This document shows, piece after piece, positions 36,755 to 42,911 of a stretch of DNA of 50,265 bases (position 1 is its first letter; every line of letters starts with the position of its first letter). The stretch is taken from contig CAIXKI010000098.1 in the NCBI GenBank assembly GCA_903920005.1, positions 1 to 50,265 of the forward strand, read 5' to 3'. The notes under the pieces were generated by a model that made no database searches, was not told the origin of the DNA, and was given only the letters and a program-made list of their open reading frames with translations. This stretch comes from an uncultured delta proteobacterium. Its GTDB lineage: Bacteria; Bdellovibrionota_C; UBA2361; OMII01. A program made the translations under genes and the position numbers.

Positions 36755-37324
36755 ATGATGTTATCAGATGAGGATATTAAGAATGTAATTAATCGGGGCG
36801 ATCTTAAGATTTCTCCGTATTCCTCCAAGTGGGTGCGCTCCTCCGGAATAGTCATGCACCTTGGCGCGGAGCTTTTGAAGCCCCGCGCGGGATACGTGGT
36901 TGACGTAACGAAGCCGGAGCCGCCTCCTTACGACCTTATCACTATCACCCAAGAGAAGCCGTACTTGCTTCAACCAGGAGAGTTTCTCCTCGGACACACC
37001 TATCAGAGTGTCACCGTCGGCTCAAATTTGGGATTCATGATAGAGGGTCGCAGCACGCTCGCTCGTGTTGGGCTCACGATCGTGCAAACCGCGATGATGG
37101 TGTATCCAGGACATCGGGATCGTCCAGTTACCCTGGAGCTTGCTAACCACGGTCCGAATCCGATCCTCTTGTATCCAAAGATGAAGATCGCTCGTGTGGT
37201 GCTTTTCGAGTTAAAGAGCCCGAGCAGGGAGAACTACGATGATAGGGGCAAGTATCGCATTCAACAGTCGGTAGGGTTGCCAATCTTTAATAACGAGCTC
37301 ATGAGTGACGATGAGCTTGAATAG
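36755..37324 (+). CDS. dcd: dCTP deaminase / dUTPase-family protein
   Basis: The 189-residue protein matches the trimeric Dcd/Dut beta-fold. The triphosphate-binding segment IEGRSTLARVGLTI supplies S100 and R104. The catalytic Glu128 is in VTLELANHG, the position used by Dcd. Dcd converts dCTP to dUTP for thymidylate synthesis; bifunctional relatives go straight to dUMP. The usual D-P-G-(F/Y/W) string before the catalytic Glu is YPGHRD here, so the activity may be altered. It begins 12 bases before the nucleotidyltransferase gene and may be cotranscribed with it. Confidence 0.85.
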   Translation: MMLSDEDIKNVINRGDLKISPYSSKWVRSSGIVMHLGAELLKPRAGYVVDVTKPEPPPYDLITITQEKPYLLQPGEFLLGHTYQSVTVGSNLGFMIEGRSTLARVGLTIVQTAMMVYPGHRDRPVTLELANHGPNPILLYPKMKIARVVLFELKSPSRENYDDRGKYRIQQSVGLPIFNNELMSDDELE

Positions 37325-37336
37325 GGGTCTCCGCGC

Positions 37337-38455
37337 GTGACCGACAATTCGACCGAGATAGAGGCCACGGCAGGCTACATACCTCTGCGTTCCGTCGTTG
37401 AGGTGGCTGTGCGTTTGAAGGATCACCGAAAGGAGAGGGTCTTTGTTGTTGGTGGTTTCGTTCGCGATCTTCTTCTCCATCGTGTGATAGGTGATTTCGA
37501 CGTTGATCTTGTGGTCGAGGGGGATGGTCTTGGTTTCGCCCGAGAGCTTCGTTCAGCTCTCGGTGGAGAGCTTCGTGAGCATCCAAGTTTTCTTACCGCG
37601 AAATTGATAGCCCCGTTTCATCCAGTGCGGGGAGACGCGCCGTTCTTAAGTGAGGTAGATATAGCGACATCTCGAAAAGAGGAGTACGCAAGACCAGGGG
37701 CGTTGCCCGTGGTGACGCCAACATCTATCGAGCATGACCTGTGGCGTCGAGATTTCTCCACGAATGCCCTTGCGCTTCCTCTTGAGGTGTATCGGGAATT
37801 TCTGGATGGTGTCGTGGCGCAAGAGGATCTCTCTTCTCGTATCGTCGATCCGTGCGGGGGCCTCTCCGATCTTAAGAGCAACGAGATTCGAATCCTTCAT
37901 CCGAAGAGTTTTGTGGACGATCCTACTCGCCTCTTCAGGGCGGTGCGTTATGCAGTTCGACTATCGTTTCACTTCGATAAGGGGACATTATCCGGATTTT
38001 ACGATGCGGTGCGATGTGGGGTTGTGGCGACGCTAACGCCACGTCGAATCTGGAATGAGGTTGTGGTCGCGCTCGAAGAGCCGAGTCCCTCTGAAGTTAT
38101 TCAAGAGTTTATTGAGCGTGGTTTATTGAGTCACCTTGCTATCGTCCCGGCAGACCAAGAGGATTATGTTGTGGCAGCTCTTGAGCGAATCGAGAAACAA
38201 AGGTCACTTGTGAGTCCCGGTCAATTCAGAGAAGCGGCGAAGTTGATTGTTCTCGCGGGAATGCTCCAAGGAGGGCGGGAAGATGTGGCGCAGGCTACGA
38301 GTGAGGGTGGGAAAAAGATTAAAGCGGCGGCTCGAGTCGTAGAAGCGAAGACACTTCCAGGTGTTAATCCGTCCGATGATGAGGCGCTCGCGCTCTATGG
38401 GTTTCACGGGAGCGCCGATTTCTTGCGCACCATAGATCGAAAGGTTTCGGCATGA
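37337..38455 (+). CDS. CCA-adding-enzyme / poly(A) polymerase family nucleotidyltransferase
   Basis: The 372-residue class II nucleotidyltransferase begins with GTG. Motif A is VVGGFVRDLLL (residues about 37-47) with acidic residues in GDFDVD (52-57). The tRNA nucleotidyltransferase motif RRDFSTNALAL is at about 137. The string YARPGALPVVTPTSIEHDL between them is typical of CC- or A-adding and complete CCA enzymes. The C-terminal helical part is short and no HD domain is seen. It matures tRNA 3' ends, probably with CTP/ATP; a split CC-only or A-only specificity, or poly(A) polymerase, cannot be excluded. Its stop overlaps the ArgRS-like gene start (ATGA). Confidence 0.88.
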   Translation: MTDNSTEIEATAGYIPLRSVVEVAVRLKDHRKERVFVVGGFVRDLLLHRVIGDFDVDLVVEGDGLGFARELRSALGGELREHPSFLTAKLIAPFHPVRGDAPFLSEVDIATSRKEEYARPGALPVVTPTSIEHDLWRRDFSTNALALPLEVYREFLDGVVAQEDLSSRIVDPCGGLSDLKSNEIRILHPKSFVDDPTRLFRAVRYAVRLSFHFDKGTLSGFYDAVRCGVVATLTPRRIWNEVVVALEEPSPSEVIQEFIERGLLSHLAIVPADQEDYVVAALERIEKQRSLVSPGQFREAAKLIVLAGMLQGGREDVAQATSEGGKKIKAAARVVEAKTLPGVNPSDDEALALYGFHGSADFLRTIDRKVSA

Positions 38456-39750
38456 GCTCTTTGACAACCGCTCTTCACGACGCAGCTCTACGCCTCTACC
38501 CGGAAGTTCAGCTCAGCACAAAGGCTCGCTTTTTACCGATGTTCGATTTGGGGAAGGGGGAGATAAGCTCGACGGCGGCTATCGAGGTGGCTCGAGCGCT
38601 CCGGGGCGACGCCATGGCTATCGCGCAACGACTTATCGAAGAGCTCTCGCCCCGATTCGGTGGGACATGGAAGGTGGTGGCGGGGTATATCGTACTTTCC
38701 GATGTGTCATCGGAGCTTATACTCCAAGAAGTGCGAACTGGAGACATGGCCCTACCGAAGAGAACTTCAGGACGGCCTCGGTCGGTTATCTGTCTGACCC
38801 CAGATTCGATAACGCCCGTCTACGCTCGCATGCGGTTGTTGGCGAGCTCCGCGCTCCAAGCCTTTCTGACGGTCGCGATTGAAGGACGGTGTAGGGTTGG
38901 ATTTGAGCCGAGTCCTCCGCAAGAGGTGTCTTCTCTCGGAGCTGTTGTAACGCTCTTTAGAGAGGCCGTTGAGCGAGCGCTTGCGTCGGATTCGGAGGTT
39001 CGTCGAACGGCCATAGCCACTCATCTCATGGAAGAGCAGGTGGTGGGGGCCCCAACAACTATCGTGTGGACCTCTCATCATTACCACGAGCAGCTCCCCA
39101 AGGAGGTTAAGCGATTCTTCTCGGACGCTCGACGGGAAGGACATACCCTTCTCAAGATGCCTCCAGACGGATGGCTGCTTAGTCGGGATCGAGCGCTCTC
39201 TGAGATCCTAAGTCCGGGTAGTATTGAACGGGTGATAGGACGGTTATCTACGCAGGAAGCCTGGGCTAGGTGGCTGTTTCATATGGCATCCGCCACCCCT
39301 TCAGGAGATCTTGATCCCTCTGTCGCCCTCTATGATGAATGCGCATCGCCACGTTGGAGTCTCCAAGTGTTACACGAGCGACTTGTGGCCTTGGCTTCTT
39401 CCGTCGTGACTACTCCCCGGGCCGAGCTTCTTGATCGGGTGGGGGACTCCCTAGTAGAAGATCGAGTCTTGGCGTTACGGGCACTCTTTCTTCCGATGCT
39501 TACCTCTCGAGTTATTGAGGATGGGGAGGTTTTGGGATGGATTTCGACCGTAGAGGAGTTCGCCGCTCGGGCTCACGCTCGCTTGAACGCCCCCCACTTT
39601 AGGGCCGCGCTGTCGAAGTCGCCGCTTTCGCGAGATAATGTTCAGATAATTGCTAGTCTAGTGTTTGGAATTACCAGTATACTACCGGTTGTTACGGAGG
39701 ACGTATGCGCAAGGCAACAGCAGAACAGCAATCAACGGGATCAGACGTAG
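38452..39750 (+). CDS. Degenerate arginyl-tRNA synthetase-like protein
   Basis: A 432-residue protein that aligns by eye along the whole of ArgRS (about 550-580 residues) but lacks the catalytic signatures. Residues 30-95 follow the ArgRS-specific N-terminal domain (STAAIEVARALRGDAMAIAQ, then KVVAGYIVLS). Residues 111-155 follow the first Rossmann half, but HVGH is replaced by about YARM (124-127). Residues 203-250 follow the second half, and WLLSRDRA stands where the KMSKS-type loop would be. Residues 270-316 match the helical part with AxRW and DLDPSVALYDECASPRWSLQ. The last 100 residues match the DALR anticodon-binding bundle. Aminoacylation is unlikely; a tRNA-Arg-binding role is possible. 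It overlaps the tRNA nucleotidyltransferase gene (ATGA) and the SPOR gene. Confidence 0.72.
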   Translation: MSSLTTALHDAALRLYPEVQLSTKARFLPMFDLGKGEISSTAAIEVARALRGDAMAIAQRLIEELSPRFGGTWKVVAGYIVLSDVSSELILQEVRTGDMALPKRTSGRPRSVICLTPDSITPVYARMRLLASSALQAFLTVAIEGRCRVGFEPSPPQEVSSLGAVVTLFREAVERALASDSEVRRTAIATHLMEEQVVGAPTTIVWTSHHYHEQLPKEVKRFFSDARREGHTLLKMPPDGWLLSRDRALSEILSPGSIERVIGRLSTQEAWARWLFHMASATPSGDLDPSVALYDECASPRWSLQVLHERLVALASSVVTTPRAELLDRVGDSLVEDRVLALRALFLPMLTSRVIEDGEVLGWISTVEEFAARAHARLNAPHFRAALSKSPLSRDNVQIIASLVFGITSILPVVTEDVCARQQQNSNQRDQT

Positions 39751-40814
39751 GGCAGCGGCCTGGTTACGGCCTTCGCGCCAAAAACTCCGAAGACTCCAGG
39801 AGGCCTTCAATGTCGGGCAAACGAAGTAGTAGTAGGGGATGGGAGGTGCGCCTCGGCGCGCTTCAGGTAGTCGTGTGGCTCGGGTTGGCTATCGGTGCCG
39901 TTTTCGGTTCTTACTTCATCGGGTTCTTCTCAGGCAGATACGTTGGATTTGAGACCGCTCGGGCGGCCTCGGGTGTAGACGTCGCCAAGCTCTCGATCAC
40001 TGAAGAGTTCCCCGAGAGGACGGCTCAGAGCATGTCCGGCATATATGACCAGCTCAATAGCAACGCGACCGTAGGTAAAGAGGTCAAGCTGGTAGCACCG
40101 AAAAATGGCTCTACGGATGCCAAAGTTGCAAAGACTATCGACGAGATTAAAAGTGGGAGTACTGCTGGCGCTGTGAACGCGGCGAGTGCACAAATCGCCA
40201 ACGAAAAACCTAAGGCTGCGGACGCGGATCCGTTTCTTGATGTCGATTACGCCGATGCTCCGTCTGATAAGGGATCGGTGCTGGCTCCGGCAGTAGAGGG
40301 GTCGCTGCTCGCTCCGGCGGTAGAGGACACAGGCAAAGGTGGGGAGGTTAGGCTTCTTGGCCAGCAATCCGGTGAAAAGCCAGTCGATATCTTAAAGGTC
40401 GTTCCTGACGCTCCAAAGGTGCCAGAGGTAGAAGACTCGATCAAACAGCCTGTGAAGGCATCGAAGGTGGTAGAGGCGACTGAGGCTGATGCGAAGAAGG
40501 TAGCTGGGGATACGAAGTCCACTACTGCTCCTAAGGCTCTGAAGGGAGCCACCCAGGTTACTAAGAAGGTACCCCCCGGATACTTCGTTCAGGTCGCGGC
40601 CCCTAAGACCCTCAAGGATGCCGAGGTGGTAGCTAAGAGGCTGAGAGGTTCCGGCTTTCCGGTTATGATTGAGGACTTCAGCACAGGTAAGTCCCCGTAT
40701 TTTAGGGTTCTTGTGGGTCCTGAGGATAATAAAGTTCAGGCGGAACGCCTCGTTGGACAGGTTAAGCGAGAGAGTTATATCTCGGGCAAGCCCTTCATCC
40801 GACAGTCCAAATAG
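39705..40814 (+). CDS. SPOR-domain membrane protein
   Basis: A 369-residue bitopic protein. A cytosolic N-terminus of about 50 residues is followed by a TM helix at about 53-75 (LQVVVWLGLAIGAVFGSYFI). A long Ala/Lys/Asp-rich periplasmic linker contains a short near-duplication (VLAPAVEGSLLAPAVED). The C-terminal SPOR domain is at about 285-365 (GYFVQVAAPKTLKDAEVVAKRL, then YFRVLVGP). SPOR domains bind denuded glycan strands at the division site. The start at 39705 lies 46 bases inside the ArgRS-like gene and has the good ribosome site CGGAGGA; a later in-frame ATG at 39810 is possible. Division-site localisation is inferred from the family. Confidence 0.88.
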   Translation: MRKATAEQQSTGSDVGQRPGYGLRAKNSEDSRRPSMSGKRSSSRGWEVRLGALQVVVWLGLAIGAVFGSYFIGFFSGRYVGFETARAASGVDVAKLSITEEFPERTAQSMSGIYDQLNSNATVGKEVKLVAPKNGSTDAKVAKTIDEIKSGSTAGAVNAASAQIANEKPKAADADPFLDVDYADAPSDKGSVLAPAVEGSLLAPAVEDTGKGGEVRLLGQQSGEKPVDILKVVPDAPKVPEVEDSIKQPVKASKVVEATEADAKKVAGDTKSTTAPKALKGATQVTKKVPPGYFVQVAAPKTLKDAEVVAKRLRGSGFPVMIEDFSTGKSPYFRVLVGPEDNKVQAERLVGQVKRESYISGKPFIRQSK

Positions 40815-40952: not shown

Positions 40953-42911
40953 ATGACTCCATCCACGCAAGAAGCGGTCTTTTCGTTATCGTCGCTTACG
41001 TGTGCGGCTGGTACCGATGTCGGTATGCGTCGGGAGGAGAATCAAGACTCGTTCGGAATCATTAAAACCGATTCGTTTCAAGGATTCTTCGTCGCGGATG
41101 GAATGGGGGGAGTTAATGGAGGGGCGATAGCTTCTCGTCTCGCCATCTCTACGATCCAGGAGCTGCTGCCGGGGTTGAAGGAGCAGATGTCGCCTGAGGC
41201 GCTCCGAACAGCTGTTGCCGAAATTAATACGCGGATTTTTGAACGCGGAAGCGCGCAGCCAGGTCTTGCGGGTATGGGGACCACTCTTGTGGGCTTGGTC
41301 TTTACTGTCGGCGGAATAATTAGCCTCAACGTCGGAGACTCTCGCGCGTACCGCATAAGAGGGGATTCTATAAAGCAGCTTTCTGAGGATCACACCGTAG
41401 TTAGCGAGCTTGTTAAATCTGGAGCGATATCAAATCAGGAGGCAGAGGGACATCCCGTGTCTCATATGTTGACGAGGTCGCTCGGGCCATTGCCTGAGGT
41501 CCTCATAGAGAGTCGATTTGAACTTGAGGCCCCGGCTCATGGGGATGTGTACGTTCTCTGCTCCGATGGTTTGTATAATTTCCTAAGTAATCAAGACATT
41601 TTCGACGTTATTAAACAGAACCCTCTCGATGACGCGAATCAGATCCTGATTAATCTCGCAAATCGAAGGGGTGGAACAGACAACATCACCGTTGTTGTTA
41701 TCTCCGTTGGTGATAGGCCGGGGAAGGGGCGGGGAAGTGAATATCGGACCGCGCGGGAAGCCGCTCCTCGTAGACAGGAATTGAGCGACACAGGACCGAA
41801 GGTCACGGCGACTAGCGCCACTCAGCTAGATTTGGATCCTCCAAAAATTCCTCCACCGATTGCTGAACCGAAGGACGCTGATAGTGAGCGTGAGCGTGTT
41901 CGCAGCAAGAACAAGGGAGGTACTGTTACCGATCCAATGTTGCCTGGGTACCTTAAGTTGGTTGCCGCGGTGGTTTTTGGTCTTATTGTTGGAGACATGG
42001 GGCGCAGATCGGCCGCATTTCCAAGTGTCGCCGCGTTCATTGAATCAACGCGGGATTCTATAATCGGGAGTGGTGGCGCGGAGAGCTCTACTGGGTTGAG
42101 GCAGATTCATCAGGACCTTCGTATCTCGTCTACCACAGGGCAGAGTAGGGAGGGGATATCAGATATTGCGCGTCGAGTTAGAGGGCAGGCAGGGACAGAT
42201 GTAGAGTCTGAGGAGTCTCCGCGCTCCACGCGGGAGCGGTCGGCATCGAGCCGAAGGGTATTGGAATCTCGGCTTGCACGTCTAGAAGGAGAGCTTTCCT
42301 CCATCGGAACTTTGTCGATAGCCGAAGCTACAAAGAGTCTGCAAAGTGTGACTTCTCGGGTTGAGGAACTACAGGGACGAACGGATCAGATTGAGATGCA
42401 GATAGACGCGGCGTCTCGAAAGTTGTCTCTCTGGTTCGGTCGGAAGAAGCGCTTAGAGACGAACGACCAAGATGTATTTCAACCTGCCAATGATCTTGAG
42501 AGGGTGGGGGCCGCATCGCCCGCCGTGAAGAGCAAAATAGCCGAATGCACCGAAGCATCGTATCTCCTGCAAGCTAAGCAGGATGAGTACGAACTCTACC
42601 CGGGTAACGAAAATTTGAGGGAGCAGGTCCGACAACTTCAGGGTAGCCGCGAAAAGCTTCTCGGAGAGTTACGTAACGAGGTTGATAAGGCGGTTGATGT
42701 CGTTTTAGCCGATACCAACCGAAGTCTAGAAGAATTAAAGTTGCAGCGCGATCTCCTTGTCGCTGAGTTCGAAGGCGTTCGAGAGGAGCGGGAGTTTCTC
42801 AAGGTTTTAGTCGATCCGGATGCGGCGCAACGGGATGCTCTCAAGGCGCGTTTGGAGCGTCAACTTGAAGAGCTTCGCTCTGGGCTCTCGGATCCGACCT
42901 CGGCGAAATAG
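40953..42911 (+). CDS. PP2C-type Ser/Thr phosphatase with TM helix and coiled-coil tail
   Basis: A 652-residue protein. Residues about 15-255 form a PP2C catalytic domain with metal-binding residues in ENQDSF (D32), ADGMGG (D49), GDSRAY, SDGLYNFL and GTDNIT. A Pro-rich linker leads to one TM helix at about 331-348 (LKLVAAVVFGLIVGDMG). The C-terminal 300 residues are extracytoplasmic if topology follows charge. They are rich in heptad-like coiled coil (about 425-480 and 535-645). Bacterial PP2C enzymes reverse Hanks-type kinase phosphorylation; no kinase gene is in the window. The catalytic domain is cytosolic in this model. The long coiled-coil tail is unusual. Confidence 0.88.
   Translation: MTPSTQEAVFSLSSLTCAAGTDVGMRREENQDSFGIIKTDSFQGFFVADGMGGVNGGAIASRLAISTIQELLPGLKEQMSPEALRTAVAEINTRIFERGSAQPGLAGMGTTLVGLVFTVGGIISLNVGDSRAYRIRGDSIKQLSEDHTVVSELVKSGAISNQEAEGHPVSHMLTRSLGPLPEVLIESRFELEAPAHGDVYVLCSDGLYNFLSNQDIFDVIKQNPLDDANQILINLANRRGGTDNITVVVISVGDRPGKGRGSEYRTAREAAPRRQELSDTGPKVTATSATQLDLDPPKIPPPIAEPKDADSERERVRSKNKGGTVTDPMLPGYLKLVAAVVFGLIVGDMGRRSAAFPSVAAFIESTRDSIIGSGGAESSTGLRQIHQDLRISSTTGQSREGISDIARRVRGQAGTDVESEESPRSTRERSASSRRVLESRLARLEGELSSIGTLSIAEATKSLQSVTSRVEELQGRTDQIEMQIDAASRKLSLWFGRKKRLETNDQDVFQPANDLERVGAASPAVKSKIAECTEASYLLQAKQDEYELYPGNENLREQVRQLQGSREKLLGELRNEVDKAVDVVLADTNRSLEELKLQRDLLVAEFEGVREEREFLKVLVDPDAAQRDALKARLERQLEELRSGLSDPTSAK

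Follow-up and report, generated by a model that had tools for sequence, protein, structure and literature searches.

A decatalyzed arginyl-tRNA synthetase homolog, putatively tRNA(Arg)-binding, encoded beside a tRNA nucleotidyltransferase in uncultured "Deltaproteobacteria"

Results

The ArgL locus

The window, that is, the whole 50,265-nt stretch of DNA analyzed here, spans the full length of contig C98 in a 257-contig genome of 3.33 Mb whose completeness is estimated at 91%. On its plus strand, an uninterrupted ORF runs from an ATG at 38452 to a stop at 39750 and encodes a 432-residue protein that we call ArgL, identified by an AlphaFold2 model, Foldseek, and hhalign as a catalytically dead homolog of arginyl-tRNA synthetase (ArgRS). 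Its neighbors lie on the same strand. Upstream, a gene for a 372-residue class II tRNA nucleotidyltransferase (37337–38455), A-adding-like by its best NCBIfam match and by its Foldseek match to 4wc2, shares a 4-nt overlap (ATGA) between its stop and the ArgL start. Downstream, the 3′ end of ArgL overlaps a gene for a SPOR-domain protein (39705–40814; PF05036, E 2e-11), by synteny the usual downstream gene of ArgL in the phylum, and a PP2C-type phosphatase gene (40953–42911), labeled from sequence, is by synteny the next gene of the conserved block. In the genus, this block starts with the dCTP deaminase gene dcd (36755–37324; TIGR02274, E 5e-36, and synteny). The first-pass annotation had described an intact gene that overlaps a CCA-type nucleotidyltransferase gene and is followed by a SPOR gene, and all of this was confirmed.

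Across the phylum, ArgL almost always lies between the genes for the tRNA nucleotidyltransferase and the SPOR protein. Its start overlaps the nucleotidyltransferase stop, or lies no more than 15 nt from it, at 27 of the 30 loci compared, implying that the two proteins are probably co-translated. In family f6 (L075, G016:C112), an ArgL–SPOR–PP2C block lies apart from the nucleotidyltransferase gene, with a P-type ATPase gene upstream instead.

Distribution and selection

A protein search of 192 genomes found ArgL orthologs in all 11 other genomes of the genus, at 42 to 62% identity, and weak matches in six other families of the order. The genus copies are mostly intact; one (G010) is split over two contig ends. 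Ten independently deposited metagenome-assembled contigs carry ArgL (genus alignment A1), which shows that it is not an assembly artifact. A search with an order profile of 21 ArgL sequences (A3) found the gene in ten families of the window's order. Weak matches in genomes of the class sat right beside the nucleotidyltransferase gene that also flanks ArgL, and the genes read between the nucleotidyltransferase and SPOR genes there gave a class profile (A6). With this profile, ArgL was found in 14 of 17 genomes of other orders, in which it measures about 320 to 370 residues and has almost no catalytic core. A match between the order and class forms (E 6e-9) links the two sets, which also have a gene slot in common.

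Our phylum sample comprises 46 genomes of uncultured "Deltaproteobacteria", a group at the level of a phylum, and covers 24 families, 20 of which have ArgL. Profile searches did not find it in families f3, f4, f11, and f14; the f11 contig stops at the nucleotidyltransferase gene, and in f3 and f4, nothing now separates the nucleotidyltransferase gene from the SPOR gene, a clean loss. Having been lost cleanly in two families and not being found in two more, ArgL is dispensable. Identity between families is about 20%. Within the genus, pairwise dN is 0.23 to 0.47 and dN/dS is 0.12 to 0.25, ratios that are rough, with synonymous sites near saturation. ArgL evolves fast, yet it is under purifying selection. 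Together, the genus orthologs, the ten independent contigs, and the dN/dS values rule out that it is an assembly artifact or a pseudogene. One genome, G025, has two similar ArgL copies (L069 on C120 and L072 on C251); its bin contamination is 9%, and the pair could be a strain mixture.

Domains kept and lost

ArgL starts with the N-terminal, D-loop/A20-binding domain of ArgRS (residues 1–95; 38452–38736), which is recognized by Pfam Arg_tRNA_synt_N (PF03485) in 12 of 21 order members and by profile searches against PDB sequences, and which is modeled with a pLDDT mostly of 78 to 95. In the alignment, the equivalent of the A20 motif is G78-Y-I-V81 (38683–38694), opposite G-Y77-x-N79 of Thermus thermophilus. 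A remnant of the Rossmann catalytic domain follows (residues 108–265; 38773–39246), from which, by alignment and model, the CP1 and KMSKS regions are missing. The LDxD/(N/S)P region and the DALR anticodon-binding bundle come next (residues 273–409; 39268–39678; hhalign E 1.8e-10). In the class forms, next to nothing remains between the N-domain and the LDxD/(N)P–DALR region.

The degenerate HIGH position is PVYARMR (residues 122–128; 38815–38835). In the joint alignment, PDSITPVYARMRLLASS lies opposite the canonical HIGH segment, and both HIGH histidines are gone; the HVGH position falls at about V123–R126 or Y124–M127, that is, VYAR or YARM. R128, next after the degenerate HIGH, is invariant in all 21 order members, and invariant ArgL residues fall on ArgRS-conserved positions. 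The joint alignment also shows that little is left of the Rossmann domain's second half. In all, HIGH, KMSKS, CP1, and about 150 or more residues of the catalytic core are gone, and ArgL measures 432 residues versus about 570 to 720 for the ArgRSs of the phylum. A protein shorter than ArgRS, with about YARM in place of HIGH and no KMSKS-like loop, had been read from the window sequence beforehand; the comparison agrees on each point, the KMSKS segment being absent from the alignment. Compared with a functional ArgRS, ArgL possesses the N-domain and the DALR domain and lacks HIGH, KMSKS, and a complete class I catalytic domain. In family f9, ArgL (L013:1426–2634) has LHLGM where HIGH would stand, perhaps a vestige of that motif.

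Homology to ArgRS

Searches with the single ArgL sequence were nearly blank: Pfam and phmmer against the PDB gave no match, and the NCBIfam arginine--tRNA ligase model gave a weak hint (E 0.039). The kinship with ArgRS was thus revealed only by alignments and structure. An AlphaFold2 model, with the window ArgL and ten named contigs as input, has a pLDDT of 79 and a pTM of 0.82. Foldseek ranks 1 to 21 for this model are all ArgRS, the best being the Escherichia coli enzyme 5b63 (E 3e-6); TM-scores to ArgRS are modest (about 0.4), which the absence of much of the catalytic domain would lead one to expect.

Profile comparisons gave the same answer. In hhalign, the order profile matched canonical ArgRS with a score of 88 (E 1.8e-10) at the DALR end (canonical residues 444–588), and the class profile matched it with a score of 79 (E 1.1e-9) in the N-domain; unrelated, reversed, and column-shuffled control profiles scored no more than 21.5. 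With hmmsearch against PDB sequences, the class profile retrieved human ArgRS (6e-7) and the E. coli DALR domain (0.0025), and the order profile retrieved Pyrococcus horikoshii ArgRS (3.7e-7) and T. thermophilus 1iq0 (1.9e-4). The PDB matches of both profiles are almost exclusively ArgRS, the others having E >1. The class profile was also searched against 61 genomes outside the phylum and found ArgRS genes of about 550 to 840 residues, with N-domain and DALR domain collinear, and no short ArgL. In Pfam, PF03485 also matched 7 of 13 class members, with at least one member above the gathering score, and it is the sole family matched by the order alignment. The DALR family PF05746 matched weakly (2 of 13 class members, E about 0.03), and PF00750 had no match in the window ArgL or in the scanned order and class members. 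These results make it almost certain that ArgL is a decatalyzed ArgRS, running from the N-domain through the DALR bundle as first proposed.

The ArgRS enzymes in use

A search of the genome for another argS found a separate gene on contig C180, cut to 192 residues by the contig end, in which the HIGH-type motif (NTHKSFHVGH) is intact. Other members of the genus carry full-length ArgRS genes. A TIGR00456 search of 38 phylum genomes gave a match in 37, above the curated cut-off in 34, and most of the ArgRSs retrieved have an intact HIGH-type motif. These enzymes are of several unrelated types and form three or more clades, all distinct from the canonical KMSKR clade; two types coexist within the window's genus, alongside ArgL. 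ArgRS has apparently been exchanged several times within the phylum, even within this genus. The motifs seen among these types are NIAKPFHVGH, NTHKSFHVGH/KMSSRKG, NxGKSLHVGHLG, NPNKAAHIGH, NTNKPLHLGH, and LHAGH. A type of about 700 to 720 residues (ArgRS loci L047, L048, L049, L051–L054, L257, and L258) has a PF01588-like insert inside the catalytic domain. This insert, which resembles the EMAPII/Trbp111 tRNA-binding domain, spans residues 206 to 302 in L048 (E 1.2e-7) and is weak in L049.

Outside the phylum, a SPOR gene lies directly downstream of argS at 8 of 40 loci, a convenience sample, and 7 of these 8 belong to the canonical clade; inside the phylum, none of 18 argS loci adjoins a SPOR gene. 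The argS–SPOR adjacency that the first-pass annotation had mentioned is therefore real. In hhalign against ArgRS alignments of somewhat unequal depth, the order profile scored 88 with canonical ArgRS versus 49 and 43 with the in-phylum types, and the class profile scored 79 versus 38 and 30. A recent duplication of the ArgRS in use is disfavored, because both in-phylum types score well below the canonical one. An ancestral nucleotidyltransferase–argS pair was also considered, and the 40 outside loci contain none. Because ArgL sits in the argS–SPOR slot and its profiles are nearest the canonical clade, it is probably the original canonical ArgRS of the lineage, decayed in place. ArgL is too divergent for placement in an ArgRS tree, so this reading rests on synteny and profile scores.

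Predicted tRNA(Arg) binding

An Asn residue, N84 in E. coli and N79 in T. thermophilus, is central to recognition of A20 (PMC8975779). This Asn is present in 13 of 13 class forms and in seven of ten order families. All 11 genus sequences have Val or Ile in its place and keep the aromatic neighbor, Y79, so that tRNA binding in the window's genus may have been altered. The four tRNA-Arg genes recovered from the genome have GGA in the D-loop, consistent with A20. Since the tRNA-contacting domains are retained, with the A20-recognizing Asn in most families, we think it fairly likely that ArgL binds tRNA(Arg), and such binding would be its most economical function.

Discussion

We favor, with moderate confidence, the explanation that ArgL is a relic of the native argS that decayed in place and was kept as a noncatalytic tRNA(Arg)-binding adaptor or chaperone. 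Foreign ArgRSs likely displaced the native enzyme more than once. The old argS would then have been stripped of its catalytic core, in part in the window's order and almost wholly in the other orders, and its two tRNA-binding domains, the N-domain for the D-loop and the DALR domain for the anticodon, were likely retained. ArgL may since have been kept for binding tRNA(Arg) by the elbow and the anticodon arm. Its client is more speculative, and might be the co-translated nucleotidyltransferase, to which it would present tRNA(Arg) for 3′-end addition or repair, or the resident ArgRS. Several observations weigh against this explanation: the window's genus lacks the A20-recognizing Asn, ArgL is dispensable, the f6 gene adjoins SPOR and not the nucleotidyltransferase gene, and none of the 40 outside loci shows a nucleotidyltransferase–argS pair. 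The idea of a retired ArgRS, first raised for the window gene alone, has gained from finding ArgL in most families of the phylum with profiles nearer to canonical, SPOR-linked ArgRS than to the ArgRSs in use. The locus seems to record the displacement of an essential enzyme, with the old gene still at its place in the operon and unrelated ArgRS types installed elsewhere. Catalysis is lost and tRNA-binding parts are kept, with graded intermediates across the families of one phylum. Testable questions follow, namely, of what use a non-charging synthetase is and whether 3′-end addition can be specific for tRNA identity.

Both the nucleotidyltransferase and the resident ArgRS are plausible partners, neither of them a probable one taken singly. 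The window nucleotidyltransferase has an A-adding enzyme as its best NCBIfam model (139.5 bits, below the cut-off), as do three members in all, and the best PDB match of its structure model is 4wc2 (Foldseek E 1e-15), with full-length alignment to single-chain enzymes. We take 4wc2 and 1vfg to be the A-adding enzyme of Aquifex aeolicus, which, like class II enzymes, shares its full-length fold with the neighbor of ArgL. To our knowledge, no ArgRS-like partner has been described for A-adding or class II tRNA nucleotidyltransferases. Each genome encodes three nucleotidyltransferases: the A-adding-like enzyme beside ArgL (37337–38455), an HD-domain enzyme (L244:1345–2733), and a PcnB-like enzyme (L245:988–2268). 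The HD-domain enzyme has a shortened flexible-loop region and is possibly CC-adding.

ArgL could be a dedicated subunit or specificity factor of this nucleotidyltransferase, delivering tRNA(Arg) for A-addition or repair much as DALRD3 serves METTL2. The overlapping or near-abutting genes across the phylum, the resemblance to A-adding enzymes in best model and 4wc2 fold, and the lack of encoded CCA in two of the four recovered tRNA-Arg genes all fit. However, 10 of 32 tRNAs in the genome lack encoded CCA, so the need is not that of tRNA-Arg alone; the enzyme survives the loss of ArgL with its length much the same; and it aligns full length with single-chain structures, with no part visibly missing. 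We consider this role possible though unlikely. We also considered that ArgL might provide in trans a C-terminal body missing from the nucleotidyltransferase, and rejected the idea, both because the model is full length relative to single-chain enzymes of similar size and because that length is unchanged where ArgL has been lost. The wider proposal, that a decatalyzed native ArgRS acts across the phylum as a tRNA(Arg)-specific adaptor for the 3′-end nucleotidyltransferase, a bacterial counterpart of DALRD3 of independent origin, is likewise tentative. If true, such an adaptor would link CCA completion or quality control to tRNA(Arg) identity, in a lineage whose working ArgRS has been replaced time and again.

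About as tentative is a role as trans partner of the acquired ArgRS, in which ArgL would bind either tRNA(Arg) or the enzyme itself and enhance charging, a task passed in some lineages to a cis tRNA-binding insert of another ArgRS type. All four ArgL-less families (f3, f4, f11, and f14) carry an ArgRS of the ~700-residue clade, which among ArgL-bearing families occurs only in half of the genus of f1; the counts of 4 of 4 versus 1 of 20 families give an exact one-sided p of about 5e-4, by a hand count uncorrected for shared ancestry. Members of this clade also hold the PF01588 tRNA-binding insert (L048 and, weakly, L049). Against it, the f14 ArgRS has no PF01588 match, other ArgRS types serve in some f4 genomes, ArgL occurs together with both types within the genus, and the acquired ArgRSs have N and DALR domains of their own.

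Less likely still is that ArgL is a pseudo-enzyme in slow decay, devoid of any RNA function and retained only as a structural protein or operon spacer, or moonlighting in the cell-envelope block (SPOR, PP2C). The fast divergence, to about 20% identity between families, the repeated losses, and the disappearance of the A20-recognizing Asn in one genus would suit such a protein, but dN/dS well below 1, intact ORFs in 20 families, and invariant residues on ArgRS-conserved positions speak against it. Last, an origin outside ArgRS, by convergence or from an unrelated fold, would account for the nearly blank single-sequence searches, but it is opposed by the AlphaFold/Foldseek, hhalign, PDB profile, outside-genome, and Pfam results and is extremely improbable.

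Comparison with known systems

With canonical bacterial ArgRS (PF03485 + PF00750 + PF05746), ArgL has in common both tRNA-binding ends, their order, the overall fold, and the position upstream of SPOR found at 8 of the 40 outside loci. It differs in lacking HIGH, KMSKS, CP1, and at least 150 catalytic residues, and in the presence of another ArgRS. ArgL would be a tRNA(Arg)-binding relic beside separate working synthetases. The full-text literature searched, a scope that leaves out most subscription journals, holds no description of an ArgRS-like or truncated ArgRS protein of this kind.

In most bacterial aminoacyl-tRNA synthetase (aaRS)-like proteins known to us, the catalytic domain survives and the parts that bind tRNA are gone. 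HisZ retains the fold of the catalytic domain and has no known tRNA role; EpmA/PoxA and GluQ-RS are still catalytic and have lost their tRNA-binding domains. HisZ, the HisRS-like regulatory subunit of HisG, is aaRS-derived and has no adenylation activity, and EpmA/PoxA and GluQ-RS (YadB) are aaRS paralogs repurposed in bacteria (PMC9437257). HisZ and ArgL are thus both non-adenylating aaRS derivatives with another job, but the domain loss is reversed: the ArgL catalytic domain is mostly gone, and its neighbors are tRNA and cell-envelope genes. EpmA and GluQ-RS keep catalysis, whereas ArgL keeps the tRNA-binding domains. A 2022 review, confined to genes that retain the catalytic domain, reports duplicates with characterized functions in 15 of the 21 aaRS families (PMC9437257). 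Of the three analogies drawn in the first-pass annotation, the one with DALRD3 fits best; the other two concern HisZ and EpmA, which keep the catalytic fold, the part whose core ArgL has lost.

DALRD3 is a vertebrate protein with an ArgRS-type DALR domain and no synthetase motif that is reported to bind tRNA-Arg and select it for METTL2; its N-terminal part has no recognizable motif, and it is reported from vertebrates only (PMC7237682). ArgL likewise combines a DALR domain with the absence of a recognizable catalytic motif. In contrast to the motif-less N-terminal half of DALRD3, the ArgL N terminus is an ArgRS N-domain, and the hosts differ. The partner of DALRD3 is the m3C methyltransferase METTL2, and no gene for such an enzyme was noticed in the conserved block around ArgL. 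By analogy, DALRD3 is the nearest functional idea for ArgL, which is itself not of the DALRD3 family.
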